Both the position numbers and the translations under genes were made by a program. From Asterochloris sp. CNOR1 (Eukaryota > Chlorophyta > Trebouxiophyceae > Trebouxiales > Trebouxiaceae): DNA of 64,000 bases. The stretch covers positions 620,001 through 684,000 of the forward strand of contig OZ017763.1 of assembly GCA_963969365.1 (NCBI GenBank), in the 5' to 3' direction. Each line of letters starts with the position of its first letter. The stretch's first letter is position 1. The notes under the pieces are model-generated. The model was not told where the DNA came from. It saw only the letters and a program-made list of their open reading frames with translations, and did not search any database. Of this stretch, positions 150 to 60,700 are shown one piece after another.

Positions 150-3100
150 TCACATCTGGGAATGCTCCCAGCCAACATACATGAATTTGCGGTTGTAGTA
201 GTTGACAGTCCTGACTGCAGCCCCACAGGCAGCTGCCAGAGCTGCCAGCAGCAGCACCTGGACAGAGAGAGGCTCTGCCCCTCGCCCAAGGCAGGCTGAC
301 ATGCCCAGGAGGCTGGCCACTCCTGTCCACGTGGCAGCTTGTTTGGCCGTCTGCAGCTGCCTCAGTGTCTGCAGCGCAGCCGAGATGTGGTGTCGGGCAA
401 CAACACAGGTGGACATGGACAGTCGGCTTGCTGAACACCATGCAGGACTAGTTGACTGTCTAGTGACAGGTAGCAGACTTGATGTGCAGCCGATCAGGTG
501 TGTGTGTAAGGGCCCAAGACACCCAGACCTGCCGCAGCTGTCTCCCTGGTATCTGGTGTGAGCGCCTCAGAAGCTCATTCCTTTGCAGCAGCTGCAGTAA
601 GCAGTGTGCTGCACAAAGCAGTCCAGAGCAGCCAGCCCCTGGTGTGGGCCCCTTGTTTGGGCCCGACAAAGAAGCTCACTGCCTGGCAGGTGCTGCACTT
701 CACAGTCTGCCTTGCATAGTGTAGTACCTGCGTTGTCAAACAGCTTGAAGCCAACCAAAACACAAACGGCTCATTGGCTAGAACGCGACGCTGCAGTGCG
801 CAGTATGCTGTATATTGCAGCCCATGGCAGCACAACTTTGGGAGTCAGCCTGCCAGCCATTCAAAACAAGCTCACCCCTCACCAGGCGCTGTGGTGTGCA
901 GTGAGAAAGGTCTCCCTCTCTGGCGGAGACACACGCACAGTGCAGCTGCTGCCATGTGCAGACAGCTGGGAATGCAGTCAACAACACACCACCACCTGAC
1001 TGAGCCTTAGATCCTGACTGAGAGTAGAGAAGACAGCAGCTCACCGCTTGGCAGGCGCTGCAGTGTGAAGTGTGCTGGGCATGCCTGTTCAGAATGGTCT
1101 CCCGGTCTGGCAGACCTGACACAGGGTGCCTCAGCGGCTCAGCCACAGCGCCGGCTCCCTGGTAGCGGGGGCCACCGCCGCCAGTGGTCTCCCACCATCT
1201 GCGGAATGCCGAGCTGCCCCTGCAGGGGAACAGGGCGCTGCAAGCCACTCTTGCCTTGCAGTGAGCAAGTTCCTCTACCGGAGTCTGAAATCATCTGCCC
1301 AAATGCTGTGCTGCCACTGCAGGGCCACATCTGTACTTTGAAGGTCTTCCTTGGCTTGTTCACTGGTGATGTCCACACCTCACTGATGTGCAGAGCTGCA
1401 TCTGGAGTGGCCGCAGCACAGCGCATGTCTGGCACGGGCACAAGTGCATGCCCATGCAGGTGCATGCTCTTTGGCTCTGATTGTGATGGACTGTCCATCG
1501 TCCAAGTGCGATTCGCGGCCAGCCGCATAGGCCCACAGCATCAAGCACACCCCGTGGCCAGAAGCGGAGCCTGCTCTGTGCTGCAGCTCACCTGTCAGCA
1601 CTGGCAGGCATGTAGTACAGGCGGCTGAAGCTGCCAGGCTGCAGCCTCATGTCGGCTGCGCGGATGGCTTCTGCCTGGGAGTGCAGGAATACGCAGTCCC
1701 CGTCAGTCACGTTGTGCAGGTGAAGGTGCCCTGCAGTCCTGCAGGTAGGTGAGAGGTGACATAGGAGTGCTGGGCTGAAAGGAGGGCCTGTTACAGCATA
1801 CGGTGTGCCGCTTGAGGTATCATGCTGCGCTGCGGGCAGAAAGCAGTGTGAGCAACGGTGGAGAGGTGCTGCTGTAGGGTGATGTCTGCAGGTGCACATC
1901 TTGGGCAGGAGGCAAATGTGCAGGCCTGCAGACTGCAACAGGCTCAGTGTGAGTGATGACGCAGAAGGGCAGCAGCAAAGGGCATTCAGCGACACAGGGC
2001 TGGCGCGGGTGGCCAGCAGTCCTGCAAGCAGTTGAGTCGACTTCATGGTGGCGAGGAGTCAGCACCCAAGATTTGAGATGAGCATGGAGTGGCGCTGATC
2101 CTGCAGGCAACATGGTGCTGAGATGTGATTACTGGCAAACATTTGCTGCCGCGGGTCGGCAGTGCTCAATATTGGGCCAGTATGCAGCTCCGCTGACCGC
2201 AATGTTGTCAAGCAGGTACTTACGCTACTGCCTTGTGGCAGCTCTACATGGCATGGCCTCTGCAGTGCAACTCTGCACACAGCAGGGTCCCCCTGCTGCA
2301 GGACTGCAAGCTGGTGCCCTGCCATTGTCAACATGCTGCCAAAGAGCTTGATTGCACCACAGCTGCCGGGCTTCTGCCTTCTCATTCTTCCAGTACAAAA
2401 CTGAACCGGGAAGGCTCACACTTGTAAGTCAGAATGCTTCCCCAGGCAAAAGGCGTTCAGCACCCTGGCACATGCAGCCTGAGACTCCACCTGAGCACAT
2501 GGCAGACCAGGCCGTGTACTGAGGACTTGTGCCTTTGGAGCTCACCTGAGCAGCCCCAGCGGCTTCTGCAGCTTCTTCTTCCAGTCCAATGGGAAGCCCT
2601 GACCCTGGTCAATCCCCGCGCAGATGATCAGCCTCGTTGAATTGGCCGTTGTGGGTGTGGCTGCAGGCAACCGTAATGTGAACATCAGCCACTCTCTTGC
2701 GGGCAACATGTGGGAGGTTGCAATTTGCAGTCCGACGTTGGGATGAAGCCAGCACAGCATGCATTTGCAATGTTGTGCTAGTGCGACAAGGTTAAGCCCC
2801 AGTGGAGGACGAAGCACCAACACCATCCTTTGCTGACTGCGCAGCATCTGGCAGAGCTTGGAGGGCTCCAAATTTCAGCCTTTCAGTGGGCAACTTTGTG
2901 CTCAGCAAGGAGTCTTGCTGCTCACCATAGATCCATAGCTGATAGCTCTGCACATCACCTGAGGAGAATCTGCAGGGCAGTGAGAAATCCAGCTGCGCAA
3001 GTGAAGAGGCTGGGAGGTACATAGCGCAATACCTCGTTTCATGTGCTGGCACAAGCAGCATGCAACAACAACAACAGCTGCACTGTGTGCAGGTGCAGGA

Positions 3101-6100
3101 ATGGCTCGCTGGGGCCCCTAAGAACATGACATCAACAGGACAGGGCTGACCCTGAATGAGGTGTCACATGTACAACTAAGCACGCGTGGCAGGATAACTG
3201 GCAGGGTGACTGGCTCCATCTATTGGAGCCGGCATCCTGCATTGCTTTGCAGCCACAACAGGAAGACTGCCAGATGAAAATCGCACTCTGTGAGAGCAGG
3301 GGGCCTGAAGTGCAGGCGAGCGTTCTGAAAGACGAGCTTCCCCGTACTCGAGACGAAGTCAAAGTCAAAGCCACCATCCGCATTTGGACTGAGACGCTTG
3401 CCAGTGGCCAGTCCTGCATGCGGTCCATGTCTGCAGCAAGCGCAGCACATGTCACACCTTGAAATATATTGCAGATGTGTGTGCTGTGCAGATGGGAGAG
3501 CTGTGGTGAGATGGCAGGGGTTGTAGTCTGAGCAGAGCTGCAGCGCCCACGCGTGGTGCCTCTCAAGAAGCTGCTCTGGGAGAAGCTATGGGAGCTGAGA
3601 CACTGCAACAATTGAGCGGACTGCAATGCTGCTGCCAGTGCAGGCAGCCGCCACTGCAACACCGTCCAGCATGTGCTGCTGCAGGCCCTGATCATGGAAA
3701 GGCTCACCTGTCGGTGGATACCACAGAGTGAGTGAAGCAGGCATGGGACTGGTCTGACTGGTTCTGCAGCGTGCCAGTAAGAAGAAGTCAGCGTGCAACA
3801 GGGCTGCAATGAGGAAGCCTGCTGCGCATGCCAGGACGCACACCGCCGGTACCTTTGTCTTGACATTCGAAAATGGTGCGCAAGCAGGCACGGATGCTCA
3901 TGCCTGCGAGAGGCATGGCAGAGTGAGCATCACACCTCCATCCACACATCAAAGCTGCCTGGCACATCGCGTACGAAGTGCTGGTAGGTCCACAGCCACT
4001 TGTCTGCAAGGCAAGGTGCACCAGGGTGAGCAGATGATGATCGCCTTGTGGCAAAGCAACGTGTGCCGCTCATCAGTAGGAGGTAAAACCTTCCTCACAC
4101 AAACTGCAGGAGCCTCTTCTGCAACACTGGCCTGCACAAGCCTGCATCATACCCAGGTGGGCTGCTGGGCCAGAACTGTTCTGCAATTTGTTTCTTTTGA
4201 AGCAGTGCTGGCATTGGACTGCATTGCAGATGGCTAATGCAATCACAAGATGAACCCTCAAGCTACACCACCCCCTCACCAGGACGGGTCTCTGACAGGA
4301 GAGTGCCCAAAGCGGGCGACTTGCCAAGACTCTCCTCAGCCGCACCAGGGCCGCTCTCAGGCCACACCCAGATCAGGTCCTGCTGTACCTGCAGGTGCAC
4401 CATGTCGCTGTTGCAGTCTGCTGCAGGGACAGGGCAGGCCACGCCTGGTAGCGCTGCCTTGCTGGAGCAGATGCAGATCACCTGTGGAGCTGACCTAGCG
4501 CCCACAGACACCTGGGCAAGGGCACCAAATCTAGCACCACAATGCATTGTTTGGTCAGAGTCAAGTTCAAGGATGCCCAGCCTTGTTGGGACTCGGTGCA
4601 CTGACTGGGGCCCCATGCAATTGCACACACCTGGAAAGGACACGGGGCACTGACTCCGACCCCATGCAATCACACACACCTAGGCGAGGGAGGCTGGGCA
4701 GTCACCTGGACCCCATGCAATTGCACACACTTGGGCAAGGGAAGCTGAATACTGACCTGGAGCCCATGCTACTGCACATACCTGACAAGGAAAGCTGGTG
4801 GCGCAGGCACGCTGGTTGGCACACGCTACCTGCTCTGCCTTCTTGTCTGTGCTGCCAATCTGCGGGATGACCACCGCCTGCCCGTCTGGGCCAAACTGCC
4901 AGCCTGCATGGGGAGAAGCTGGTGACAGCCATGATCCTGCATGGTTACTTTTGACCAGGCGACCTGTGGAAAGGACATGGTGCGGAGACACATGCAGACA
5001 GTCAATGACCGCAGCATTTATGCCCTGCTCACACTTGAACAACGCTGCAGCGCCGAAGCGGGGTCATGCAGAGACAGCACTCTGCAGAGCACAGTGACAG
5101 CGAAGGACTCTGGGCATGCATCCAGCTTCACATGCGCCCTAACACGCAAGTAGGCTGTATGCACATTGCAAAATCAGGTCGCTGATGAGCACTTGAGAAG
5201 CGCCTTTTTGACATGGTAAGCACACTTCAGCAAATTGCTGTCTTGCTGGACGCAAGCAGGCTGCAAGCGGGCTGACGGTGGGGTGATGTTGTTCTGCTGA
5301 GCTATACATGTCTGTTCTTACCATGATAGGCACACTCCAGCGAGTTGCTGTCCTGGTGGACGCGGCCCTCTGAGAGTGGCACCTTCCTGCACAGCAAGCC
5401 ATGGAGCACTGCTATGTTGTGCACGCAGCAAGAGACCAGCGCAGCAGCTAAGCTTGAGCTGGCAGCAAACAATCTGCTGCCTTCCTGTGTGGCCGTTCCC
5501 ACCATTGCAGCTGTTATGCCTGGCATCTTTGAGCTGTCATGCTCAGTTGCACAGGTGGAGATCAAACCAACTAAAATGCTCGCCTCTGCAGCCTGTGGCG
5601 CATGTGGAAGCACATGCTGTGCCTGAGACCTGTTGCCTGTAAGGTTCCATACTTCAGACGCTGCTTGGCGTTGCCAGGGCACAGCACGGTCCTCAGCAGG
5701 TACTGGCAGATGTCTGTGCTGGGCCAATGCGCTCTGCAGGCGATGCATGGCGGGTACTGATGCCTGGTGGCAGCCCGGTGCTTACCTGTGGGGGCACAGA
5801 TCCTGAAAACAGCGCCACTGCTTGCTGGAGTCCTTCCACAAGACAAGCTCCATGCCTGCACACACGAGCAGACAGGTCTCTGCTGCACTCCCCCAGGCTG
5901 CACTACCCCAGCTGCACTCCTCCACCAGGTGCCCCGCTGCGTGGGGCCAGGGGGTCAGAGAAGATGGGCAGCACCGTATGCCTGCCATCAGGAGCGCATA
6001 GGACTGATGCAGGCAGGCAGGAGCAGACTTTGCCACAGACACAATGTCACTTATGTCTTGCTGATGGTACTGGTGCTATGCCATGCTTGCTGTGGCACAG

Positions 6101-9017: not shown

Positions 9018-11432
9018 ATGCAGATCATGCAGGCAGTTCAGAACCTGAGCAGCAAGCAGGCCATCTCAGGCATGGCCCCTAAACTTTCAGTTCCACAGCT
9101 TGCCCAGCGTCAGCAGGTCTTGACAACCACAAGGGCTGCAAAGAACCCCCTCAAAGCCCCCTTCAAGGGCAAGGTGTGCATGCACTTGGGGCTCACACTA
9201 CTGTTTGTAAGCCTGTTGCGACTGGAGCGCTGCATGGCAGGTCTTCAGTGGATGTTGTCTGTGCTTAAGCCATCAATCTGCAATACTAGTATTGCATGTT
9301 GGCTTCTGAGCTTGGCAGCCATGAATCCCACCAGCTAAAAGCAGCTGCCATTCCTACAGCTCTCCTGTGTCTGCAGGCTGAGTACGATGGCAATGCCTAC
9401 AAGACCAACCCTGTACAGAGCGCTTTCACACGGCGCAGGGAGATTTTCGTGGGTAAGTTTGAGAGCAGTCTGCAGGCTGATTATTGCCCAGATTGGCGCT
9501 GTGCCACTGCCTCCAAGCTCAGGTCTGTGCGCTGCTCAGGCATGCTTCAACGAGGTCTATGTGTATGATAGCCCACCTCCATACTTTTGCATTTCCTGCT
9601 ACCGAGCAGTGCTGCAGCCTTTTCCTGGCCTACACCTGGCCCTGTCTTTTGTGGTCAGGGCAATGTGTCTCCAAGTTGCATTGCTGTCCGGCACTTTGCT
9701 ACAGCAGCACTGCCATGACTGCCACTTTCTGAGACCATCACTCGAGTGTTGTGCTGTTGCACACTGTGGCGGCATTGCCAGACTGGTCCTGTGTCACGCC
9801 GGGCTGCCTGCTTCACTGCTGCGTGTCCTGTGCTGCAGGTATACCTGAAGCACAGGTGTCATCTGTCAGCACGACCTCCTCTTTTGTAACATACAGCCAT
9901 CTTGCTCTCCTCATCCCTGTCTTACATCATGCTGCAGGCTGCACAGCTGTGAGCTCTTTCCAGCCACCATGGCATGAGGCTGACCATGTGCGAGGGGGTT
10001 CTGAGGTTGCCACAGCTCATCATTGTGGTGCCTCTGTACAGTCATGCTCAAGCAGGGCTTGTAGCCATGTTCAGTTGTCACTCGCCTGGTCTGCAGGCCG
10101 CACAGCCATGACCGGCTTCTTCTCCGCCGTCATTGGTGAGCTCCTGACAGGGAAGGGTGTCATCGGGCAGCTCAACCTCGAGACCAGCCTGCCCCCCTAC
10201 GTCATCAAGGGCCTGATCGCTGCCATCGTGGGCTTCAACCTGGTAACCGCGCTGCTGCCCAACGCGACCTTCTCAGAGGAGAACCAGCAGGATGTCAGGA
10301 AGAGGCCTGCTGGTGAGAGCGCCTGTCATGCTGTTAAGGGAGGTGCAGCTGGGCAGCACACATCTGGCTGCAGAGAACATCTGCTTTGGCTGGTGCCAGT
10401 GTATTTGCTCTGGGCAGGCCCTGCTGGTCAGGGGATTGTCAGCAGCTGCAGCTGGCAGCACTGATGCAGTGGGCCTGCTTGGCAATGCTGGTGGATGGCT
10501 GCATGCATTGCCTGTTGTGTATTCAAGTTTGGGCCATGCAACCTGTTGTCAGAGTGTGCTATTGGGCTAGGCCTTCCGAGCCTTCACCAACTCAGCATGC
10601 AGCCTGTGAAAAATCTGCAACAGCTACTGATTGCATCAAGATTGCAACAGCTGCTCTTCTGGAGGGGCGGGCTGTCTCAGTGACCCGTTGTATGTGTTTG
10701 CTGACAAATGTGTGGCTGCCAAAATGTGTTGTGGTGGCGCCAAGCCAGTGTGGACCTTGTATATCCCATTGCAGCCTCCAGCGCTTCTGCCACTCATGCA
10801 GCCTCCAGAGCTTCTGCCACTCATACCTCTGCAGGCGGCGTGCAGAAGCCTGGGAAGGTCAACTTGGCGCAGGACCCCGCAGGCACCCTGGGTATTGACA
10901 AGGGCGGGTTCGGCTTCTCCAAGCAGAACGAACTGACAGTTGGCAGGGTGGTGAGTTCAGTTTGCTGGTAGCATGCCACTGTTGGCTTGACTGTCATTGC
11001 CATGTTGTATTGCTGCTCAGCTCTGGCAGTGAGGCACTCAACAGTGGGTCAACAGCACTGTGGTTGCTGGTAGCAGTGTGCCACAGCGAGCGTCTCAGTG
11101 CACTGCAAAATGTCTGGCAATACTCCTGTCCCTCATGGGCAGCCTCTCACTCGCACCACTAGCCATAGGGCTCCACAACAGTGTGTGGCATATATGGGAT
11201 ACGCGTGTTTTCTTGTACCATGCAGGCCATGCTTGGCTTCGCAGCTGACCTTATCGGCGAGCAGCTCACAGGCGGCAAGGGGCCTCTGCAGCAGATTGGT
11301 CTGGGCATTGGCCAGCCCCTCAACCCTGATCTGGCTGGCTTTGGCCTGGCCGTCTGGATTGGCTTCTTTGCTCTGGCAGCCGTCGGCTTTGGCAAGCTGG
11401 GCCAGCAGACTGGTGGCAACGACATCTATTGA
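9018..11432 (+). CDS. PSBS: PsbS-type photosystem II 22-kDa protein (nonphotochemical quenching)
   Basis: Five exons (9018-9173, 9377-9452, 10097-10312, 10835-10950, 11226-11432) join in phase to 256 residues, close to the usual size of PsbS precursors. The first exon is Ala/Lys/Thr-rich, as expected of a transit peptide. The mature part has two LHC-superfamily halves: REIFVGRTAMTGFFSAVIGE with LLTGKGVIGQLNLET, and NELTVGRVAMLGFAADLIGE with QLTGGKGPLQQIGLG. PsbS is a four-helix thylakoid protein that triggers qE by protonation of lumenal glutamates, one per half. The first-half glutamate (NLET) is present. In the second half the matching segment reads IGLGIGQP, without it. The start is the first ATG in frame; ATG at 9027 is an alternative. 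A TGTAA lies about 200 nt after the stop. A divergent PsbS-like paralogue is possible. Confidence 0.9.
9931..9976 (+). repeat. Intronic copy of the PSBS exon 3 acceptor junction
   Basis: GCTGCAGGCTGCACAGCTGT mimics the real junction TCTGCAGGCCGCACAGCCAT at 10090, and the similarity continues for about 45 bases, into GCATGAG versus ATTGGTGAG. Confidence 0.75.
10771..10825 (+). repeat. 27-bp tandem duplication abutting the PSBS exon 4 acceptor
   Basis: CAGCCTCCAGCGCTTCTGCC is followed immediately by CAGCCTCCAGAGCTTCTGCC, each ending in ACTCAT. The second unit runs into the functional acceptor at 10834. Confidence 0.85.
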
Positions 11433-12358: not shown

Positions 12359-15055
<2,697 letters not shown>

Positions 15056-40800: not shown

Positions 40801-42473
40801 TGTAGGCCATGGTGTCCGTGCCATGCACGACCAGAAAGGCGTCGTACTTCTGCCTGCAGCAGGGCAGGTGAGCTCAGGCTGCCATGCTGACTGAGCTGCT
40901 GAGACGCATCAGATGTCCTGCTCATGACAGGCCGCCAGTGCAAGTGCCTGCATTGTACCTTTTGTGCAGCAGCTTGGCAGACTGCTGCCAGTGTGCCAAC
41001 ACAGTAATTGTTTATCTCCAGGCCCATCGATGACAGATGTTGTGCTGTGCTGCTTGACCTGTTGCGGTGAAGGAGCTTGGCAAGCTGCTGCCACTGCACA
41101 GGCCCCACACGGCTGGAGTCCTTGTTGAAGGCCACCTCCAAGTGAAGGTTGGCAAAGGCGCTCAGCTCGGGGACGACGTTCAGCAGGTTGCCCAGCATCT
41201 CACCTGCACGCACACCAGTCTGGAACTTGAAAAAGGGCCAGCATGGTGGCAGCCAATCACTGTACTGCCTCGATGGCATGCACAAGGCTGCCTTCCTCCC
41301 TTGATGTCATGCTGCCAAGACTCTTCAGAGCTGGCATGGGACCTCAGCTTGGGGACCACTGCAGCCGACTGCCAGCGTTTATCCTGCACAGTTGTATGGG
41401 AACACACACATGACAGCAGTGCAGGGGGCCAGGTAGCTAGACAGCCTGGCCAGCTGAGGCCTGCCCACACGGCCCTAGAGGGCCTGGGGAGATCCTGCAG
41501 CGCTGATGTCTCTGTAAGGGGACAGTCAGGAGGCTGTCATCAGGCACAACCAACACTCTGACGCCCGCAATGCGCCGCCGAGCACACCACACATGCAGAC
41601 TTCCCAGATGCTGCACGCTGACCTGCCTGCTGTGTGAGGGACTCGCAGCCACTGCTGCTTGCTGGGCTGCAGAGGCCAGCAACCATGGCCCAGCAGCGCT
41701 TGGCTTGAGAGTGCCCTCTCAGCAATGATTTGGGTGCTGCATGCCGGGCAGTGGCAGTGGGACAGGTTCAACTGAGACCAACCATTTGCATGCCCTTCAG
41801 CCAGCCCTAAAAATTCATAAGCAGCCCTGGCGTAGCTGCACCTGGCTTCAGAGTGCCCTTGAAGTTGCCCCCTGTGCCTGGCCTCAAGGTGACAGTGCCA
41901 TCTGCTTCTGTCTCAAATGACTTGTCCACATCCATCCCTAAAGTGCCTGTAGAGAGGCACAGTCTGGGCTGAGGCAAAGTTTTGCCAGTGCTGAAGCAAT
42001 ACTTGTGCCCAAAGTGCCTGCAGAGAGGGCACAGTCTTCGTTGAGGCGACACATGCCAGACCCGAAGTAGGGTTTTGCACATCCAGGGTGCCTGCAAGAC
42101 AGTGTCTGAAATGCCAGCCACTTGCCCAGGGAGGCAGTCAAAGCTCTTGTTCAGAAATCCTGTAGGCACGCCAGCAAAGTTGCAAGCATTTGTGTGCCTC
42201 ATCAGCAGTGATTGTCTGTATGCCGGAGAGAGAGCCAGCATCAACACAGAAGCAAGAACCGCAGGAGGCAGAGGTCTGTCATCTGCAGGTGAGGGGTGCT
42301 GCTGGTGGTCTGCCAGCAGCGCCAAGCTGTGATGCAGCTTGCCCGTGGCTTAGATTGACCTGTCAGCCTGGCACTCGCCACTCAATGAGGCTGCCAAGTC
42401 ATGCTGTTGTCTTGAACAAAGCCTCACCTCCAGTGTGAACAAGTAGCACTCGGGGGAGAGGCTTGCTGATCAT
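37894..42473 (-). CDS. Type I L-asparaginase (AnsA/60-kDa-lysophospholipase type)
   Basis: Nine exons (42473-42428, 41946-41842, 41203-41059, 40853-40744, 40435-40285, 39721-39613, 39070-38951, 38372-38274, 38082-37894) join in phase to 357 residues, a normal size. It hydrolyses asparagine to aspartate and ammonia. RVLLVHTGG spliced to TLGMD supplies the first catalytic Thr, and [16 protein letters not shown] supplies the second Thr-Asp pair. [47 protein letters not shown] and [10 protein letters not shown] are further family signatures. The model starts at ATG 42473, but the frame stays open above it to an acceptor-like TTAG near 42531, so an N-terminal exon is possible. The first intron carries acceptor-junction copies. 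Confidence 0.93.
42005..42115 (-). repeat. Acceptor-junction copies in asparaginase intron 1
   Basis: The real minus-strand junction is CCTCTCTACAGGCACTTTAG at about 41955. Copies read CCTCTCTGCAGGCACTTTGG (near 42010-42035) and TCTTGCAGGCACCCTGGATG (near 42080-42105). Each joins an acceptor to the start of the TLGMD exon. Confidence 0.8.
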
Positions 42474-46300: not shown

Positions 46301-48206
46301 AGTCCCAAAGGCAACAACAGAGCCTCCAGCTTCCCCTACAGCATGGCCCCCGTTTTGAGGGCTGGCGATGCAGTGCTCCGCCTCTGACAGCCGAGGGACA
46401 GAGCAGAGCTGTGTTTGTGTGATGGTCACTGAGATGACTGCCACTCCATGTCCCCTGAGCATAAGATCACAACAAATTGAATGCATATAACAAGCCCCAA
46501 CTGCTCGAGACTGGCCAAGTGTATCTGCTGAGAGCGCGCCCTTCTGCCTCTGCAGGACGTGGCTAGGTCTGGGACAGCCAAGACTGGCAAAGTGGGCACA
46601 CCTGTTTACATGGCGCCTGAGGTCGTTCTTGGCAGCAGCAAGTATGATGGCAAGGTGAGAGGGCTGGTGCTTCTTTGCTGCTGTCCCGGCCCCTCCTTGG
46701 TCGTACGGCTCTTCTGTGCCGGGGTGTCTGGCGCCTACAAGGTGCCGCGCCTGCAAGTGTGCCAGGCCCAGGGATGGGTCACAGGTGGGGCGCTGCAGTC
46801 TTGGCCATTGAGCTTTGGGATTGTTCCTGGCAGCAGCACATGTGACAACAAATGAGGGCAAAACTTGTGCATGCTGGCTGTCAGTGTGCCCTCATGCATC
46901 AGAGGTGATTGACCCCAGCTGCTGTCCTGTGCTGGTGCCTGCCACGCGCGACGCCCCAAGAGGCTGGTCTAGAGCTGGGCATTGCAATCCGGACATATAA
47001 GCTTGGGGTGTTGTCTCTAGCAGCAGCAAGGGGGCTCGTCTCTAGCAGCAGCAGAAGTGGTGGCCAGTGCGGCAGCGTGACAGCTGACGCCTGGGTTGCC
47101 ATGCAAGCAGTCAATAAGAGACTCTGCTGACAGCAGTGAGCAGACCTTGACCCTCACATCAGATCAACCTGCTTTGCTTGTTGTGCCTTGCAGAAAGCAG
47201 ACATCTGGTCGTGCGGCGTGATTCTGTACGTTATGCTCACTGGCCAGTACCCCTTCAACACCCGCGACAGAAATCATTGTGTCAACATCGTCAATGCGCG
47301 ATACATGCTGCCGACAGATGTGGAGCTGTCTGAGAGCTCCAAGGATCTCATCCGTGGAATGCTGACTCCCAACACAGTCAATGTGAGTTGCTGCACTGCG
47401 TGCTGGTGATTGATGCTTGGCGGCTGGTATTCTCCTTTGCTATCGCTGCTATGCTGGGTCTTGCACCAGAGACAGACGTGGCTCCAAACACCGTCTCGTG
47501 GCCCGCTGACTCCATGCACAGTCAGTGTGAGGTGCGAATCATGGGCTGCTCGTGTTGCAATTGGACCATTGTTTGGAGGGCCTGTCATAGGGCAAGTGCT
47601 GGCCTGTGCATATATCGGAGGTGGAGTTGTGCCTGCTCCTCAGGCTGTTGGCCAGCTTAGAGCTTTATTTTAAGCTGTTCAGGTATCCTGGAGCGACGAA
47701 TCAGTGCTGCCTCTACCCAGGCTCACAGTGGGTGCTCCTGCTGTTGCAGAGGTTTGGGGTAGCAGACATCAAGCAGCACCCCTGGTTCCTGGAGGATTTG
47801 CCTGATGGCGCTCTGGACATGAACAGCACCCTGATGCAGCAGGCACACAGTTTGGATGAGGTGGGGAACTTGCCTTAGTGAATGTATTGTTGAGCCCATT
47901 ATGATGCAGCAAGAGCCAGAGCCTGGGGCATTGTTTGACACCCAGTGACGATGCAGACCTGCGCCTTGGTGTGCTTGTACTGTGTCACAGCCGTGTGGTG
48001 CAGCCAACATGCTGCTGCCACCACCTTGAGATGCGTAGTTTCAAAGTTGTCGCAGCAAGCGCAGTCGCTGCTGCAAAAAGCTCAACAGCCCTTCGTCTCT
48101 AAAGCCTCCTGTGCTGCAGAAGGAGGCACTTGTGAACAATATCATTCAGCAGTCATGTCATCTCGGGCACAAGGGTGAGCACCTCCCTACTCTCACTGTA
48201 CCGTGA
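43311..48206 (+). CDS. SnRK2-type serine/threonine kinase
   Basis: Nine exons (43311-43349, 43772-43868, 44384-44475, 45081-45242, 45948-46052, 46556-46654, 47194-47382, 47750-47860, 48120-48206) join in phase to 326 residues, close to plant SnRK2s. Kinase landmarks are the Gly loop GDGSFGRVV, VAIKLL, NVKREI (αC Glu), LTPHHLAIVMECANGGTM, CDFGFSK, VGTPVYMAPEV, DIWSCGVILYVMLTGQYPF and the SnRK2-typical IKQHPWFLEDLP. SnRK2s act in osmotic and nutrient stress signalling. The catalytic loop reads NRDLKLEN instead of HRDLKLEN. The ATG at 43311 gives an SnRK2-length N-terminus; ATG 43248 is in frame. The last exon may instead splice at 48175 (GTGAGC), which would replace the short tail. Four or more introns contain junction copies. 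Confidence 0.92.
44901..45080 (+). repeat. 75-bp tandem acceptor-junction repeat in SnRK2 intron 3
   Basis: Acceptors CTGCAG end at 44930 and 45005 and the functional TTTGCAG at 45080, exactly 75 bp apart. Each is followed by a version of the exon start: GTGTTGCTCACCAATGTCCA, GTGTCGCTGACCAATGTCTA and the real GTGTTCCTGACCCCGCACCA. The unit 44931-45005 is open in the exon frame; the next has TAG at 45024. Confidence 0.92.
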
Positions 48207-48717: not shown

Positions 48718-51700
48718 TCACATATCCACGTTAGACAATCTCATGACAGCAGCATGTGGCTGCAGCTGAGGCCCCCACCCATACAGATGACTGGCGTTGT
48801 GCATGAGCGGAATGCTGGGAGGGTTGCAGGCATGTCCCTCCATTCGCAGCGCAGCCTGCCCCATGAAACTCAGCTTCAGCTCTGGCTGAAACACGATGAG
48901 GCCTCCTGGCCAAGTCAGACTGTCGCCAACAGGCTCGGGTACCTGCAAGGCAGCACAGGCCGTCAGCAATGGGCTTTAGGGCGCAGAGCGGCTGCTTCTG
49001 ATACCATGATACTAACAAAGACAGTGATTGCTGCATGCAATGCATTGTCAAGCCCACACCTAGCGTATCCTTGCGCTGAGTGTTTTAGTTTTGCTCACAA
49101 CACCCAGCAGCAAACGATCTGGCAAAATAGACTGCCAGGCAGGGAGCCTGCACCCTCACACACTATGAAGCAATGGTGCACCATCTGGCAGCACAAAGTG
49201 TGCTGAGATGGTGCTCTGCCAGCGGTGCAGCATGCTGTGAGGGTGCCAAGAGGATGCCGAAACGGTGCAAACAAGGAATGGTGCAAGGCAGCAGCACCAT
49301 TACCCCAAACGAGCTTGCCTTCCCCAAGCACCAGACCCCTGCTCCCATGACACCTAGCAGCAGGCTATCATCTAATGGATGTACAAGGCCAGCTCACCTC
49401 AGCAGAGCCCTTCAGACCCAAAGGCCAGAACCAGTTGCCACTGTCCTTGTGGAAGACCCAGCCTGCCAATTTCAGGAGCTTGGCAGCTATCAGCTGCTGG
49501 GCAGTGCCCTGCAGACATCATGGATTGCAGTGTTTTGAAGATGCTGCAGCAGGGCACCAAACTACTGGGGACGCATGCTGAGGGCCACGCCTGGCACTCA
49601 AAAGTGCAAGGCTGCAGGTGAAAAGTGGACACCAAGAGCTGTACATGGCGGTGACATTGAACAGGCAGGAATGAGCCCATGCAGACTTGAGTGCAGCATG
49701 CTGGTCACCGATAATCAAAGAAGCACTGCTTGGGGCACTGCCAACACTGTAGAAGGCGCAGGCAGGCAGAGGGAGCTGTCACAAGCAGCCAACAAGGCAG
49801 GCCTCACTGGCCTGGACTCAAAGGCACAAATAAGGAAGCGCAGCCACGGGATGCATGGCTGCCTTGCTGCTCATGGAGGGTTTTGGGGCAACCCTCCCAT
49901 TGCAGACACTGCTATGTGAGGCCTGACCAGATTGGTTTGCAGAAGCAGGCAAACATGAGCAAATCCAGCCCCATGCAGGGTTATGTGTGACCCCCATTGA
50001 GCACACAGGCTCTGCGAGAGGCCTCACCGACTCAAAGTAGAAGGCAAACATCAGCATGTCCAGCCCCGCATGGGGCTTGCGCGCCACCTTGCGCCAGAAA
50101 GCTGCAGACTGGAACCTCTCGGCGTCCTGGGCACTCAGGGGCAGCTGAGGGAAGCCACGCCTGCAGTTTTAGCAGTTTCATTAGCAGCCAACACATGAGC
50201 AGGTCGGCCGCCCAGACCGCCTGGCATTTTGCATGCAAAGAAAGTTGGGCAAATTAAGGCCTGCAGTGGTGAGAGTGTCAGTAGAGGCCAGACTGCAAGA
50301 CGCTGTTGTGCACTTGGAGGACAGCTTGAGCCGCGACCTGAGAAAGCAAGCGAGAGCTCTGATTGCTGCAGCAGGCCGGCTCAGTGCATTGCTTGAGGCT
50401 CACCGGCCACACTGGCCCAGTCGTGCCTGCACTTGAAAGATAGTGCTGTTCTGTGAGACAGACAGCCGCATTGTTGCACGCAAGGCCAGCTAGGGTGACC
50501 ACATCCTATCATCTGCAAGACCGGCCTCTAATTTTGCCACTGTTCCTACTGCTGCGCAGTGGAGGCATACAACCCCACAGCTGGGCCTGGTACAAGGGGG
50601 CAGCAGAACACAACACTGCTGCAGCCTGCCCAGTAACCTGAAGGTGGCACGCCACAGTGCACAACCTGCAGTTGCGCAGACAGACTGCCTGCGTACCCTG
50701 CGGCAGGCCTGACATGAGCGCTGCCCCAGAGCAATCAGACCAAGTGCCAGGGCGCCCCCAGCCTGCACTCACACTGACAGCCATGGTGCCGTGGCAAGCA
50801 TCACCTGAGGGCTGCATACTTGAGCCGCAGGGTCGGCGGCTGGTCCAGCGAGGCGTGCAGCGGCGGCAGGGGCAGGCGCATTGGGTCCACTGCAGACCGT
50901 GGCAGCCTGCAGGGCAGAATGGAGGCGTCTGCAACAAGTGCGCAAGTAGACATGTCTGCAACAGGTGGATGACTACTTTTGTCGCAAGCTCTGTGGCCCA
51001 GGACTAGAGCCGAGAGGGGCCCTGTGGACACTGCCTGCATGCACTGCTCAGCAGAGTTGGCATACAGAGCAAGAACAAACAGGGTCGATTTCAGCATTGA
51101 CAGATGAGCAGCGCCAGAACGTCCATCAGGTGGGTAAGCTGTTGCACAGGCATGCCTGACACATCCTCACAGGCACGGTCTCCTGCTGTAATCAAGGGCC
51201 TTGAAGCAGCAGGTGGATTCCAATAGACCGTACCTGCTGCGCTCAAGAGGCCCCTCCTCTTGCGCTCGCAGCTGTGCCACTGTGCTCAAGGTGTTCCTGC
51301 GCACGCCGTTTCGCCGCAGGCAGCCAGTCAGGTGGATGCACGAGTCCTCTGGCAGGACGCTGCACAGTGCAAGGACAGGGCAGCCAGTCAGGTGGGTCCG
51401 GGAGTCCTCTGCCAGAGCACTGCACAGTGCAGGGCAAGGAACACACCAGTCAGCTGGGTGCACAAACGCTGCGGCAGGGCACAGCCACGCTGTCTTGCAG
51501 CAGGGCGCCTGTCAGGTGGGTGCAGAGCTCCTCCGCCATCGTGTAGCATAGCGCAGGACAATTGTACGGCATTCAGTCTAGGGTTGGGCACTACACAGCA
51601 TAGGTCAAGCAAACAGCAGCCGTCGTGTGGGTGCAGGAGCTCTTATGCTGGGAACTGCACAGCACATCACTACTGCAGGGCTTCATTGAAGCAGGCAGGG

Positions 51701-54700
51701 AGGTGCCGTGCAGTGCAAGACAGATAACTTGCCTGCCAAGCAAACAGAAGGCATGGCCAGCCAGGTGCTTTTTGGCCAGCCAATGGCATGCAAGATGATG
51801 CCTTGAGCAGCCAATGCAAAGTGCAAGAAGCGACAAGTTGGCCTCCCATGAGGAGGTCCGATGCTGGGCTTGGTGCTGGCAGCTAGCAGTTGCTCATTCA
51901 GTTGACAACAACAGAGAGCAGGCTAGCCACACAGCAGCCCAACTTCACGTGATGCTGGCAGCCAGCATCAGATCAGAAACAGGCACCAGCAGGCCAGACG
52001 ATCAGCTGTAAGCCTCACATCACGCTGGCAGCCAGCACTCGCTCTGCTGCCACTGCCTGGGTCTGTGCCCGCCTGAGGCGCTCCTGGGGGTTGGCATTCT
52101 CTGCAGGGGCGTCTCCTGCTGCAACTGCAGCAGATAAGGTTGCTGGTGAGTGCTGTGTAGTGTGGGAAGTCCTTTGAGTGACAGTGACCCCTGTTGCCAA
52201 TGCTGCATCACAGCAGACTCTCCAAGTGCTGCCTCTGTTGTTGCCTGTGGTGTTTGACCAATGCAAGCAACCCAAGCCATGCCAGGCCTGGGGCAGCACA
52301 AAAGGTAGCCTGTGGCCCACGTGGTGCAGCCCGAGCACAACAACATCCCCTGTTCCCCAAGCTGCAGCCGAACAGGTGACCAAGACTCAGCAAGCTCGGC
52401 AGAGGTCAAATCCATGCTTTTGACACCTGGCGAGCTCAAGCACGCAGCACATCGGCATGTGTTGCTGCCTGAGCTGCGCAGCACAGCGCAGCAAATGGGT
52501 TAGATAACCTATCACACCTTTTGCTTGGGATTGAATACTTGGCCAGACACATGGACCACTATAAGCTGCAGGTGCACCATGCTCAAGCTGGGATCCTTTC
52601 TTGGCTGAGTTGGAGCAGGCCCCACTTGGACTGCCTTAGTCTGCAGGCCATGTCCCTCACCCACATCATCTCGTGACTCGCACACCTTGGGCTTGGCTGC
52701 CTCCCTGGGCTGGATGTTGAACCATCTCATCATCAGCTCTCTGTCTAGTCAAGGCACTGGGCCTGCCCAGCACCCCCACATTACCTATCCTCAGGCAGCG
52801 CATTGGGCAGTTTTGCAACGCTGCTGGCTCAGACAAGGACCCAAGGGCCTTCCAAGCACCCCTTTGAGACTCCCAACTCTCACCTGCTCCCTCAGATGAT
52901 GTGCACAGCAGCCCCTCAACTGCGCTGAAAGCCTGCTTGATCTGGGGCGACCCAAGTGCATGCCAGCAGCCTTCCTCTGGGCCTGCAGGGGACCTTGAGG
53001 GTGAACATCTGGTTGAGGGCCTGGCTGAGAGGCTTGTGCACTGCTGAACCTATGGTCAGGCAACTTGTGCACTTGTCAGCACCATTTCCTTGGAACGCAC
53101 AGAACAGTGAGCACTGGAGGAACAAGACTGCGCTCTGCCTCAGCGGGTTTGAAGATTTCTGCGACAGCAGGCCATCAGTGTTCATCACATGCTGTGCCAC
53201 CCACATAACATGCAGCCTTGACAAGCCATCAGCTGTGGAGCTCACCCCGCAGCTGTTCCACTGGCTCCTTTGGCAGGCACTGCCATAGCAGGTCCGCCAG
53301 AGCAGGCTCAACATCTGCTCCTGCCACAGCAGCTGTCACTCCCAGCCCTGCCTCTTCTGGCAGCGCCTCAGCTGCTCTGCCTTCCTCAGGCTGCTGCAGC
53401 AGCACGCCACCAGCCTGGGAGACTGCGCTGGGTGCCTGCTGCGGTGCAGGCTGTCCCTTCCAGTGGGCTGCCTGCGAAGCTGGCGCGAGGGACTGCTGGC
53501 TGGGCAGCGACGCCTGAGGAGCATGTGAGACAGGAGCAATAGTCCTGGTGCCCACTGGGCTGTTCAGCTGGCCTGCACCGGTAGGCTGGCCCTGCCCCAG
53601 CGGTGGCTGCCCTGGCATAGCACCCCTGGGCGAGGGGGCTGCCACCCCTGCAGCTGCCACCTGCTGCCACCATCCAGAGTGCAACTTGGCCATGGCCAGC
53701 TGCTCCGGATCCTGGCTGGCTGCCTGGCCTGCTGCAGGCTGGCCCCCACCAGTCCCCTGCTCGAAAGCAGGGCCAGGATTGGTCACCGCATTATGCAGCA
53801 ACGTTTCAGCAACTGAGATGTTGCAAGCACCCTCTCGAAGCTGCAGCTCTACAGCAGCGGCAGCTCCTGTCTCGTCCCTGTGCTGACTCTGCTGGCACAA
53901 GTCCTGTGCAGCAGCCGCCAGGTCGCTGCTGCCTGCCCTGTGCAGGCACAGATCAGCGCTGTTCCTGCCACCCATCTGCGGCATGGGGCCCATCTTGTGG
54001 CCGTGCTCTGCTGGCGAGCCATGCCTCTTGCTGTCATCAAAGGCGCAGTGCAAAGTTCCTTCAGAAACTGCGTGGGGAGCTCTTTCCACAGCCCCTGCAG
54101 CTGCTGTCGCCGCTGAGCCCTGGACGTCATTCAGGGAAGAGCTGTGGCGCTGCTGCTGTGCAGCAGCAGCCACAGACTGGTCGTGCCCTGCCTGATGCAG
54201 CGCCGCAGGCACCTCCTGTGGGGTCAGGGTCTGCTCTGGCGCGGCCTTGCTCGGCCTGCCAGCCTGCTGCTGCAAGGTGCTGTGAAGCTGGACCGCCCTC
54301 TGCTGCATAGAAGCCTGCGGGCCAGGGCAGCCAGGCAGCCTTGCAGGCACCTGCCCTGCTGCCATGCTGCTGTTTGCTGGACAGCTCGTATCAGAGGGGC
54401 CTGAGTCGCGATTGTTGTACGGGATACGGTGATCTCCAGCTAGCAGCTGGCCAGCGCGCCCTGGCCTGTCCTGCCATTCGGGACGAGGACTTTGGTGGCT
54501 GGCCACCCCTTGCTGGCGGAGGCTTGGCCCCGCTGCCACGTGCTGCCCCAAGGGCCCAGCAGGGCTGCCGTGAGCAGCGGCACCAGCCATCGCGCCTGCT
54601 GCAAACTTGCTGTGACCAGGGTCAAGCTGCTGCAGCACAGCCTGTGCAGCAGGCGGGAGCCCGCTCAAGGCCTGCCCTGGGCTGCCTGCCACAGGTTGCC

Positions 54701-57700
54701 TAACCTGGCGGCTGGCCGTCTGCTGGTACTGCATGGCGACAAAGAAAGGGAGCGGGGCCCACTGCTGGGGGCCCCCTGGCTGCTGCCCTTGTGGTGGGGC
54801 AAAGCTGAAGGCCTCCTGGGCAGCGCTGACCTCGGCAAGTTCCCTGGCCTGCGCCTGCGCTGCAGGCTCCCGCGTCGCAGTGCCCGGAGGTTGCGCCGGC
54901 TGGTGCCAGGCAGACAGGGAGGCACAAGCGAGCTGTGGCCATGGAGACCGCGCCTGTGACTGTAGTGGATGTGGGGAAAAGCCTGCAGGCACCTGGCCTG
55001 CTGCAGGATGCACCCCTCCTGTGCCCACACTTTCCTCAGGCTGCCCAGTGTCCCCGCGCTGCAGCGGCCGCAGCCCCGGAGCCTGCTGGGGCCCAGCAGT
55101 GCCCCTCTGCATGCTCAGGCGTGGTGGCTGCGCAGTAAGCAGCGGGGCAGCCGCTGGTGTGAGGCTGTGAGGCGGGCCTGGTCGCTGCTCCAGTGAGGCT
55201 GCTGCTGGTGGTGCCCGCAGCTCTGTACCCTGTTCAGGCTGCTGCAGCGCTTGCGCTGGGTCATGTGCCTGGCTCAGACCAGCGTCAATGCTCTGCCTGC
55301 GGCCTAAAGTTGACACCACCTGGTGGTGCTGGTCCAGCATGTCTGGAGAGGCGTCAACAGGCACGTGTGCAGAGATTGCTGGCACGTCCTCGTTAAGATT
55401 TCTGCACCAGGAAGATGAGAATTGGGTGAGCTAAGGCGTGTGAGTAGAGACACTGAGGCATATGATTAGCAGGAATCTGAGGTTGTGCAGAGCCCAAGTC
55501 TGAGTTTGAGTTGGTTGTGGTGGTTGGAGATCGACCAGCTTGCTACAACGTCCGGGCACAGTCACCTTGGGGTCAGCTGTGTTGGCATCCATGCGCTGGC
55601 CTCTCTGCATCGCACAGCTGCAGAGCTTGTGGCCCCCTGAGGCCTCTCCTGTCCAGCAGCAGCCGGGGACCAGGAGGCAGTGCCCAGGCTACTGGATTTC
55701 AGGCTGCCGGCTGTGTGCCGATGCTCACTGGAGGGTGCAGGGGACTCTTGGCCTTGTAGAGCAGACGTGCTAGCGGGCTGGGGGGCTGGCGCCACATCAC
55801 AGGAGCGCACAGAGGACGAGTTGTCAGTTCCAGCCTCTAAGCTAGGGCTTGAGCGCGCTGCCACCTCTGCGGCAGCCCTGCCTGCAGTTGACAGCTTGGC
55901 AGGCCGCACTGGCCCCTCTGACGTACCTTGGAGCAGTGCTGGCTCTGTAGCGGCAGCCTGTGCAGCGGCCTCCTTTGCCGATGTTACAGGGTCCGCTGGG
56001 CTTGCTGTCGCTGGCGCAGCCTCAGCCTCAGCAATAAGCGGTGCTGGCGCCGCAGGGGTAGGCTGAGCAGCAGTCTTTGATGGCTTTGCGCTCACCGCTG
56101 GCACTGTCACAACGGGCTGTGCTTCAGACGTTTGCACTGACTCCGCAGAGGCAGATTCCTCAGCAGGATTTTGCATAGACACTACAGCAGCGGCTGGCAC
56201 TGCAGCAGCAGGCTGTGCAGCAGCTGTTTGGTCTGGCTTTGCAGGCGATGCTGAGCTTGCTCGAGCTGGAGCAGCCTTGGCCCTGACAGCCAGACTTGCC
56301 TCCAGCCGGTCACCAGCCCCGCTAGGCTCAGCACCCTGCACAGCAATGGCACGAGCCCTGGCAGGGGCTGGCGCCGCTGTGCTGCTGCTGTCAGGCAGCG
56401 GGTCTGCCTCAGTAGCGGCAGCCACAGCGGGTGCAGGCTGCTGGGACTTGGGCATGTGAGCCTTGATCTTGCCTTTGTCCTTGCCCCCTTTCCCTGCAGC
56501 ATCCAGCAGCAGTGATTCAGCCCTGGAAACTCTCTGTATGGCAAAGATGCTGCCTCCTGTCAGCTATGATGTGTGACCCTTGTCGTTGAGGCTTCCCAAC
56601 ATGCAAGAGCATTGGGCTGCAGGCATGCTCCTGCCCTGTGGGTCAGGAGCGTGGGGCAGGAGAGTGGGTTGGGAGGCATGCATGTGCTTTCTCACGCTCC
56701 CTGCCTCCATATGATGAATGTCTGCCTGGCCGCCTTGTCCAGCTTGTGCATGTGGCTGCAGCAGCCCAAGGGATGAAGCTGGCGATAAAAACAGCCGTGA
56801 AAAGAAACCTATGCATCCAGCAGTCATGGCACACTTGTGACTTGACAGCCCTTTGACCTGCTGGCTGCTTGGGTCTCTTGACTGGTTTGGTCTTCCTTGG
56901 CACCTCCAGCACTCTGATGTTGTCCAGCACCTCAGGCTCCTGCATGGGCATGTGCTGGGTGTCAGCATGCCATGGGCGCAGGCAGCACAGCTGCAACACT
57001 GCTGGTGGTGCGCGCAGGGACGGCTATGCCAGCTTTCCAGCCTGCCAACTTGAGTTTGCAGCCTCACAAAGGCTGCACTTCGTGATGCAAATGCAAGGAG
57101 TGAGCGGTTTGCGCTGCACAGGCCCACCAGCCTCTGTGAGGTGATTGATACGCCTGCCACCTTGCCTCTGCGACCCCGCAGAAGGATGCACAGGTGCGCC
57201 TTAAACAGGCAGGGCTGCAGACTGTCCCTCATGCAGGAGCAGCCTGAGGCTGCTCTGCCCAAAGTGAGCAGTGGGGCCCTCAGCTCACACACGCTGTGCT
57301 GCAATTGCCAACTTGTTGCCTGCCTGCTTACTGTCCGAGACTCAGACTCAGGCTGCCAGTTGGCCAAAGCATGGGCATATCCAAAAAGCAGTTGTGGCCA
57401 GCACGATGACCTGCCTGTGGTCTGTGCACCTTGCTTGTGCAGAGCAAGGCTTGCGTCTGCATGAGATGGTGCGAACGCCGGCCAGTGGACTTTGCAGTCA
57501 GTCAGCAGACTTGCCTATTTTGCGAGCAACGCCCTCACACCATGGTGCTGCTTGAGGTGCGGCACTTCGGCGCCGATGCCCTTGCAAGCCCGGCCGGCTG
57601 CTGCATGAGCCCCGACCGCATGTCACCTCTTGACTCTGCTGCAGATTCGGCCCCCATGCATCCCATGACCAGCAACGTGCGTGGCTCCTCTCACACTAGC

Positions 57701-60700
57701 CATGCCCTGCAGCTCACCTCTTGACTCTGCTCCATCAGGTAGTGCACGTGGGCACCGATGAGGCCCACCATGCTCACCCCCTCGGGCAGCAGATCATCAA
57801 ACATGCCTTCGTCCTCCACAAAGTCTGAAGCCATGTGTGTGGGCAGCTAAGGTAGACAGGGGACTGGACATAACTGTCAAAGAAGACCTTAGATGCACAG
57901 AGGCCTGCCAGTGTGCACTAGGGGCCTTGGCAGGCACCAGCAGGACAGCGTGGTCGGATGCAGGATGTCAAAGGGCTCATGTGTGCAGAGGCCGATAGCA
58001 GCGTGGACAGGCCGCTGGCACAGGCTGCTCTTTACAAAAGCTCCTGGATCAGCACGAAGTTGACAGGCCGCTGGCAGAGCCACCCAGTGGAGCTCCAGTA
58101 GCTTTTTTAGGTGATGGACAGGCGATTGGCATATGCATCACCTGGTTCACGGGCTCTCTCCAGGTAGTCTTTCATGCTGTCCTTCAACCTCTGCTGAATC
58201 TGCTCAGGCGTTACCTGCATTGGCCATGTCACTTTGAGCAGGTGAGATTGCTGGCATGGTCCGTCTATGCACTCCCAGCTTTGTCGTGCAGGCCACGGCC
58301 AGCACCTGGTTGTGGTGGCAGCAAGCTCAATCAGACAGGGAATTGCCTGTGCCAGCCCTTGATTCCCCTGTTACAGTACAGGGCGCCCCTATGCTTTGCA
58401 GCACGCCCCAGCAGCACTACATCGCCCATCAGTTCTGCCAGTTCTCCAAGCCAACTCACCTCATCATTGTGCAGCAGGCGCTGCACCTGCTCTAGGTGGG
58501 TGATCTGAAGCTTGTGCCTTGTCGCCAGCTCGTCAAGTTCTGCAGCCCTGGAGGGAGGCTTTTTTGAGTCAGCTTTGGATGTCAGCTGCTCCATGTCAGC
58601 CTACATGCATGGTGGCAAAGTCTCGTTGAATTGGCCCAGATGTCTTGAGTGTGTACAGAGCTGTACCACCCTGAGTAAGCCTCTTGGTCCCCCTATTGGC
58701 CTGCGAGTGTGGACAACAGGACCTTATGTGGCTGTGTGTCATCAGGCCCACCCTTTCAGACGCCTTGACCTCAGCTCCTCAACATGTCAGCCTGCATGCA
58801 TGGCGGCAGAGCCTCCTCACTCTGGCCAATGTGCTTTTCCCTTGGACAGAGCGGATGCTGTACTGGGGAAGCCTGCTTGTTGGCAGTCTATGACCTCTGC
58901 TGCTGAACATCAACTGCATGATGGCACAGCCATACATCAGAGACACCTGTGGCATGCCAGGCACAAGCCTGCAGCTGAGACTTTGCTGCATTCTGAGGTG
59001 AAAGGAAACCAGATCTCCAGACCTTGGGGCTCACTGGCTCACCCTGCTTGTCCTGTCAGTCTTGACATGCAGGGAAGCCTGACAAATGAGCAGAAACACC
59101 GTCTCAGTGATTCCCATGCCTGCAGCTCCCTCACCTCAATCAGCTCAATCTGCTCTGTTAGCTGGCCCTTGACCCGCCTCAGCCAGTGCTCGCTCTCCTC
59201 CCTGGCCCTCTCCTCTGCCGACTGCTCCTGCTGCTGCCCCAGTGTGGCCTGGCTGAAAGGCTTGACCTTCAGGGATTTCTCCAGTTCTTTGAAGAGCTCC
59301 TGAAAGGTGGCAGCTGGGCGCATTTAGAGAAAGCATGTCAGCAATTTGGTAGGACAGCAGACGAAGTTTGCACTTCAGGGCCTTGTCCAGCTGTCTGACG
59401 TCAAGTTCTGAGGCTATCGTGGAGTGCAAGATTCCCTCTGAGGCCAGCACAAGAAACTTTTTGCAGCGGAGTATCTGGGCTCCTGATGCTGACTCAGTGT
59501 AGTGCAGGCAGAGGTCTTGAGCCCCAGTAACTCCTTATGTCTTGAATGCATGTGTGCAGGGACAAGGCAGCAAGTTGAGTGGGCCATGGGCCGCAGGCCC
59601 ACATCCCACCATCTGTGCGAGCCTCGCAGGTGGCTGGTGCCAGGGTTAACTTGAGCACAGCACTGTGATTCACAAAACTTGACGCTCTGGGCTGCACACG
59701 GAGAGACCACCATCTCAGACATTTCGTCGGTGTCAAGCCTCCAGGATGATGCTAGTGGCATGGCAGCTCATGACCAGCAGACTGCCTGACTGGTGAGCTG
59801 GGCTGGTCATTGCAGAGCTTGATGGTCCTGCTGATGCACAAGCTGACAAAGGCCACCACTCACCATCAGTCCCCACAGCACGACGAGCCTCCCAGAGAGT
59901 GTCAGTGATGCATCACACGCTTACATCTGGCTGCAGCAAAGCCCAGTAGCCAGCACCCACCGGGAAACTGAGCTCTGGCCTAGCCAATTTGCGGCATAGC
60001 ATCTGGATCAGCCGTTGGCCATGGGCTGCAGGCCTCAACCATCATCTCAATCTCTACGGCACGCCAAGCCTCCAGGAGCATGTTGATCCCATAGCAGCTC
60101 ACCATGCGCACATCAGTCTTGGGGATCGGATGCCTGGGCTGGCACGTGCAGGGAGTGGCGGTCCTGTGAGCATTAAGGCTGCAGACTACAGGGCTCACCT
60201 TCTCAGTCTATAGAGCATGCTGAGCCTCCCAGAGCATGTCAATTTGCCTTGGCAAATCACATCATGCCTGAGCTGGCTAGTGCAGAGCAGGTCCTCTTGA
60301 GCTCTGAGCTTCAGACTTGAAGACTCACCATCTCAACCTCCACATCGCGGCGGGCCTCCAGAAGCATGTCAATGTCCAGGTGCTTCTGCCCGCTGTCGAC
60401 CCACTCCCTGACTTGGTCACGCAGTCGCTGCGGAAAAAAGCGGGCCAGATGTCATGCCGAATCCAGCTTGATGAGGTTGCAGGACAAGACGCAGCAGCTT
60501 GAGACGACGCAGCTGAGAGCTTGGCTGCAGCTTGTGGCAGCAGCATGACTCAGTTGCTCTGCTGAGGCCAAAATCAGCCTGCCCTGCAGTGTACCAGATC
60601 CCAGTGGTGAGGTCATTGACACCACCTGGAGCCACTGGGGCCGTCACCTGAAGCTTCTTCAGCTCTGACTTGGCCTCAGACATCCATTTGTCCTGCTCCT

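Follow-up and report, generated by a model that had tools for sequence, protein, structure and literature searches.

Local duplication across exon edges is real and common in the alga Asterochloris sp. CNOR1, some of whose introns contain diverged copies of the sequence spanning their own donor or acceptor. The feature was proposed in an initial annotation of a 64,000-nt stretch of the genome (the window; G000:C18:620001-684000 in an assembly of 56.4 Mb and 21 contigs). In a 314-kb sample that includes the window, such a copy of at least one of the intron's own two junctions is present in 38 of 317 introns. The pattern probably reflects ordinary tandem duplication on which splicing and the protein frame act as filters, rather than a process aimed at splice junctions.

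The sample comprises the window and five 50-kb blocks from other contigs; a first version covered 264 kb. The block from contig C9 was fetched once the junction test was fixed, yet took part in the refitting of gene models. These models were obtained with a small hidden Markov gene finder trained on the sample, which returned 764 introns (mean length 260 nt) and 804 exons, and learned the splice sites CAG/GTGAGC (donor) and CTGCAG/G (acceptor), the slash marking the exon edge. Direct local similarities were scored without gaps (+1 for a match, -1 for a mismatch) and the resulting pairs were classified as exon-intron (E-I), intron-intron (I-I) or exon-exon (E-E). Junction tests were applied to introns of at most 1200 nt for which both exons had a coding-model score above 4 (282 of 640 introns, and 317 of 764 after refitting). 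The GC content of the window is 54-63%, and the available description of an Asterochloris genome gives 56 Mb, nine introns per gene and a GC content of 56-62% over 98% of it (PMC6652019). Among the places listed, TTTAGGG repeats occur at both ends of contig C1 and at the start of C2.

With the refitted models and a score of at least 16, the donor is copied in 24 and the acceptor in 20 of the 317 introns, versus 2 and 3 of 317, respectively, when junctions are swapped between genes. Before refitting, the corresponding numbers were 23/282 and 17/282, with swapped controls of 0/827 and 1/820. The initial annotation had let its proposal depend on an excess of this kind, which is clearly present. 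The copies lie on the intron side: when these junctions were searched for copies in the adjoining exon instead, the counts were 1/281 for donors and 1/280 for acceptors (p 2e-6 and 1e-4 for the bias). In the window alone 5 of 39 introns are concerned, and in the C9 block 3 of 43, swapped controls being 0 and 0 in each case. A block C1 example consists of 60 exon bases and the donor, which recur in the intron at a distance of 152 bp with 73% identity. Of the six stretches, the window has the highest density, with 18 E-I pairs in 64 kb compared with 48 in the other 250 kb. The phenomenon, which had been attributed to most genes, is widespread and affects about half of the gene-finder models (20/39).

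These junction copies belong to a larger population of local direct duplications. At a score of at least 16 and a spacing of 30-599, the 314 kb contain 317 direct pairs; the two far-spacing controls, at about 6 and 12 kb, gave 14 and 24. For spacings of 15-149, 163 pairs were found where the far-spacing rates predict 0.8-4.6, and for spacings of 150-499, 137 pairs where they predict 2-12. Collapsing the pairs (spacing search limited to 30-299) yields 186 arrays, 157 of which have a spacing of 50-249 bp. Tandem Repeats Finder identified periods of 51 (4589-4788), 75 (44900-45092) and 60 (51319-51431), and other pair spacings include 89, 97, 103, 110, 144 and 155, in agreement with the periods of about 50 to 150 bp first reported. 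Identity lies between 65 and 85% in 133 of the 186 arrays; it is 0.8-0.9 in 65 and at least 0.9 in 23. This scarcity of young pairs may reflect either a fast loss of fresh copies or a declining activity.

The reading frame distinguishes duplications confined to an exon from those crossing its edge. The spacing is divisible by three in 16 of 18 same-exon duplications, part of which may be protein repeats, and in 20 of 66 E-I pairs (Fisher p 1.7e-5). Because of this contrast and of the intron-side bias, the copy appears to be removed by splicing, the outer sites being those used in the RNA. We consider it likely that introns grow by background tandem duplication while their outer splice sites stay active. 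Short direct tandem duplications would arise genome-wide, possibly from the fill-in of staggered breaks followed by end joining. Where the duplicated unit includes a splice site, donor or acceptor, the first donor and the last acceptor would remain in use and the protein would be unchanged. The inner copy, including the copied junction, would turn into intron, lengthening it by one unit, and would then drift, with the copied donor usually lost. Duplications within an exon would survive nearly only when in frame. The abundance of junction-spanning copies would have two causes: introns (median 218 nt) are only about twice as long as the unit, which makes a random hit likely to cross an exon edge, and a copy whose exon original is frozen can be recognised for longer than a pair of intron copies that both drift.

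Introns that hold exon-derived copies are indeed longer, as initially supposed (median 375.5 versus 204 nt; 58 and 703 introns), a contrast confounded by the greater room that longer introns offer for copies. The E-I spacing has a median of about 0.39 of the intron length, and falls within 10 nt of it in only 2 of the 62 pairs having an assigned intron. The spacing of these two is what an intron freshly created through tandem duplication would show.

Several results weigh against untargeted duplication followed by splicing, and they are considered here with the alternatives that some of them favour. The gene models are ab initio. When each of the 186 arrays (score of at least 16, one pair per array, spacing 30-299) was moved randomly within its own block, I-I pairs (81 observed, 85.0 +/- 6.7 at random) and E-E pairs (22 versus 21.2 +/- 3.9) matched random placement, and E-I pairs exceeded it by about two standard deviations (66 versus 53.6 +/- 6.1). 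Exon-only pairs are thus undepleted, though selection should purge many of them. In the 264-kb version (178 arrays, spacing 25-399), junction-holding copies numbered 72 for 49.6 expected, or 101 for 91.3 when 'mixed' pairs were included. Uniform duplication was also simulated in three unfitted settings, in which splicing uses the outer sites, exons stay frozen and all other sequence drifts; in each setting 4065-4184 of the 6000 events were skipped, being neither wholly intronic nor across one junction. The simulated E-I/I-I ratios of 0.57, 0.70 and 0.74 all lie below the observed 0.81.

These counts, together with a copy coverage that peaks at about 0.10 at exon ends, would be expected if exon ends were hotspots of breakage or re-copying, for instance through splicing-coupled R-loops or motifs such as CAG/GT, CTGCAG/G or CTGCAG/GT. 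Junction duplication would then be the main route of intron lengthening and of mimic-site shedding. We regard such targeting, and this consequence of it, as unlikely. The exon-end peak is itself expected, as is a second one some 100 nt into the intron, because exon sequence is conserved and its copies can still be detected. Coverage is about 0.045 in the exon at 60-90 nt from its end and 0.05 in the first part of the intron (far-spacing control up to 0.016), but it rises again to 0.11 at 130-150 nt into the exon. The untargeted simulation comes near the observed ratio, and intron interiors exhibit the same kind of excess as junctions. In a segment test at a score of at least 12, applied to introns of 150-800 nt (426 of 640), copies were found for 37/426 donors (8.7%, null 0.57%), 30/426 acceptors (7.0%, null 1.22%), 22/347 intron-interior segments (6.3%, null 0.76%) and 4/165 exon-interior segments (2.4%, null 1.0%). 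The initial annotation had stated that an equal excess for interior exon segments would speak against it; exon interiors show little excess, whereas intron interiors nearly equal the junctions. The duplicated unit does span existing junctions as described, but the junction does not appear to be its target. Junctions are mostly not special, the counts being close to random placement combined with splicing and selection, and a mild junction preference, of about 1.2- to 1.5-fold, is possible.

Other discordant results concern orientation and the extent of homology. Over a comparable range, inverted pairs number 31 versus 14 and 13 in the controls at a score of at least 16, and 9 versus 0 and 2 at a score of at least 20, a small excess. 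Of the 66 E-I pairs, 43 have gapped homology over half of the spacing or more, and 18 over at least 0.8 of it; the value is below 0.4 in another 18, with I-I pairs similar, whereas only 2-7% of simulated intron tandem pairs fall below that value. These low-coverage pairs may result from later large indels, or some events may not have been simple tandem copies. Both features are consistent with local templated insertion of short segments, as by a polymerase-theta-like activity, which may explain part of the pairs. However, theta-like templated insertions are expected in both orientations, and the few inverted pairs compare with 317 direct ones. Templated insertion was rejected as the main route and is, as an overall explanation, quite unlikely.

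The fate of the copied splice sites bears on a third alternative, in which the copies are retained because they function as cassette exons or alternative ends; the initial annotation had suggested that alternative exons might be created. In its favour, certain mimic sites are intact, an example being a 75-bp array in a SnRK2-like kinase gene of the window. Its real acceptor lies between 45080 and 45081, and upstream of it the acceptor and exon start are copied, with exon-like parts beginning at 44931 and 45006. The first and last copies align to one and the same short run of SAPK10 residues, and since the last alone continues into the kinase domain, the third acceptor is the real one. The first copy (44931-45005) is open over 25 codons, is accompanied by an acceptor and a donor-like CAG/GT, and was called as an extra exon by the gene finder. 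The second, however, contains an in-frame stop. Among donor copies selected by exon similarity alone, GT is kept in only 7 of 42 (2 of 42 by chance; 0.49-0.58 in the simulations), and, as seen above, spacing in E-I pairs ignores the frame; copied donors and frame are thus not conserved as they would be in duplicated exons. Copied acceptors keep AG in 15 of 17 cases when selected across the junction, in 6 of 14 when selected by exon similarity (simulation 0.48-0.59) and in 15 of 21 in gapped alignments, a method that may favour the alignment of common AGs; no consistent AG loss emerges from these three selections. Functional retention of this kind, which the first and last of these acceptor counts would favour, appears improbable overall.

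Mimic donors, to judge from the sequences, tend to erode. This part of the scheme is also the one to which the remaining contrary results apply. In the same donor copies, the last four exon bases match at 0.52 versus 0.68-0.73 in the simulations, the intron side from +10 to +30 at 0.32 versus 0.41-0.45, and the exon part at 0.73 versus 0.79-0.80, exon-tail copies being more diverged overall. The loss is therefore not demonstrably specific to GT. It is milder in gapped alignments (GT kept in 13/41, versus 0.50 for nearby exon dinucleotides), and GT is kept in 13 of 27 donor copies selected across the junction, versus 0.634. Within introns, the acceptor-like TGCAGG occurs 237 times on the sense and 322 times on the antisense strand (p 4e-4), which suggests selection against decoy acceptors and also disfavours functional copies; for GGTGAG the difference (46 versus 62) is not significant. 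Of the mimic sites that were predicted to accompany the duplications, the donors thus look short-lived, and the acceptors vary between selections with no consistent loss.

Two further explanations can be set aside. Chance similarity, arising from a CTGCAG-rich composition and from the CAG/G motif common to donors and acceptors, is very improbable and was rejected: swapped controls do reach 12.5% and 19.7% at a score of at least 8, but at a score of at least 16 hardly any match is left in the controls, whether swapped-junction or far-spacing. Insertion of an introner or transposon family into junctions is next to impossible and was likewise rejected, since, despite the many genes involved, all three units searched against the 56.4-Mb genome match themselves alone (the search skips very common words), the 731 sample introns that were compared yield only 7 similar pairs, some of which involve neighbouring introns, and the copies match their own exon. 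No intron family was found among these introns or by the three-unit search. The most similar pair, in the C4 block (introns near 22.5 and 27.3 kb), extends over 331 nt with 80% identity in the same orientation and possibly belongs to paralogous genes. The phenomenon is a local duplication process, with sequences that differ from gene to gene as first noted, and not a transposon or introner family.

The individual cases of the window are listed in Table 1. Pfam searches with six of its seven gene models (g3 was left out) identified a Rieske domain in the PAO-like model (with a PaO match slightly below cut-off), a chlorophyll a/b-binding domain in the PSBS-like gene, Ala_racemase_N, Asparaginase (with a Vps62 match slightly below cut-off), a protein kinase, and Not3 together with Mpv17_PMP22 and NOT2_3_5_C. 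The kinase aligns with SAPK10 and SRK2E. Two models, asparaginase with VPS62-like and NOT3 with the Mpv17/PMP22 match, may be merged genes, so that models should not be equated with genes. The exon at 36813-36993 ends directly after the Asparaginase_C match. Six genes had been named as carriers of junction copies. Exon-to-intron copies are found in five of them (PAO-like, asparaginase, VPS62-like, SnRK2 and NOT3), whereas PSBS has no E-I pair with a score of at least 16 and a spacing of 30-299; it exhibits one borderline pair at spacing 301.

Table 1. Junction-associated copies and related repeats in the window. Coverage is the gapped homology as a fraction of the spacing; numbers in brackets are splice-site positions.
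Gene model and feature	Position	Strand	Evidence
SnRK2-like, 75-bp array, 2.6 copies across the acceptor	44900..45092	+	Tandem Repeats Finder, sequence, SAPK10 alignment
SnRK2-like, exon end and donor (45242), copy 155 bp downstream in intron, mimic GT kept	45204..45403	+	score 21, coverage 0.29
SnRK2-like, exon end and donor (46052), copy 119 bp downstream, mimic donor GG	45981..46190	+	score 28, coverage 1.12
SnRK2-like, exon end and donor (47382), copy 144 bp downstream, mimic GT kept	47336..47535	+	score 23, coverage 0.53
SnRK2-like, exon tail, intronic copy 198 bp downstream, weak	46609..46845	+	score 16, coverage 1.07
PAO-like, end of exon 5322-5386 and donor, intronic copy at 110 bp, mimic GT lost	5144..5363	-	score 29, coverage 1.00
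PAO-like, 51-bp intronic array reaching the donor (4782)	4589..4788	-	Tandem Repeats Finder and pair search
PAO-like, acceptor and exon start (1220), intronic copy 97 bp upstream, mimic AG kept	1187..1329	-	score 18, coverage 0.47
VPS62-like, end of exon 34096-34266, intronic copy at 98 bp	34005..34168	-	score 23, coverage 0.78
Asparaginase/VPS62-like, end of exon 36813-36993, intronic copy at 89 bp	36752..36897	-	score 29, coverage 0.64
Asparaginase, exon end (donor 41059), intronic copy at 103 bp	40938..41096	-	score 20, coverage 0.54
NOT3, 60-bp tandem duplication across the acceptor (51360), mimic AG kept	51319..51439	-	score 39, coverage 1.02; 82% identity
NOT3, exon end (donor 50028), intronic copy at 95 bp	49873..50067	-	score 22, coverage 1.37
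NOT3, exon end and donor (52019), intronic copy at 70 bp, mimic GT kept	51910..52037	-	score 17, coverage 0.83
NOT3, exon end and donor (57718), intronic copy at 91 bp	57551..57734	-	score 20, coverage 1.02
NOT3, exon end and donor (60329), intronic copy at 130 bp	60130..60373	-	score 26, coverage 0.88
PSBS, 27-bp tandem repeat, intronic, right before the acceptor, not spanning the junction	10770..10824	+	Tandem Repeats Finder

The window has other repeats as well. One set (19715-20100) consists of direct repeats, about 87 and 174 bp with 67-69% identity, and looks like a repeated protein motif that resembles the ankyrin type. The asparaginase/VPS62 region includes a 62-bp inverted repeat (38426-38487 and 39772-39833; 85% identity, 1.4 kb apart), and near-perfect palindromes of about 30 bp are located at 9827-9856 and 6910-6938.

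Splicing can thus shelter tandem duplications, which are tolerated across an exon edge and, within an exon, almost only in frame, and the frame contrast makes this sheltering visible without RNA data. It provides a concrete and countable route to intron growth and to the brief appearance of competing splice sites. It is also a warning that gene finders can mistake copies of this kind for exons, as happened in the SnRK2-like gene.

In the literature that could be searched, from which most subscription journals were absent, no report was found of junction-spanning duplication as an intron-lengthening process or as a feature of an algal genome. Several known systems are nevertheless related, as far as the accessible texts describe them. 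Introners (PMC9860276) also change introns across many genes; here, however, the searches of the sample revealed no intron family. Small tandem duplications have been attributed to break repair, through Pol alpha-primase fill-in and end joining, and are said to be, among insertions shorter than 100 bp, the commonest in the human genome (PMC8355091). They are direct tandem copies, as those of Asterochloris may be for the most part, but many of the spacings observed here exceed 100 bp and most copies are too diverged for their breakpoints to be read.

The closest model of intron gain is the tandem duplication of AGGT-containing segments (Rogers model), for which in vivo support is described (PMC3443670, PMC4974935) and Drosophila cases are presented (PMC2891723). 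As here, a tandem duplication preserves the coding sequence and creates copies of splice sites. However, in that model exon sequence is duplicated and whatever lies between the two copies of AGGT is turned into intron, whereas here the unit spans an existing junction; a new intron of about one unit length is suggested only by the two pairs mentioned above. The accessible part of one of these studies mentions an 83-bp duplication inside an intron, not detailed since it left the gene structure unchanged (PMC4974935). The Asterochloris copies also resemble internal gene duplications, the common direct duplications within genes that can alter exon-intron structure: they are direct, lie within one gene and occur above chance. 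They differ in that an existing intron absorbs the copy and grows, so that a new intron is unnecessary.

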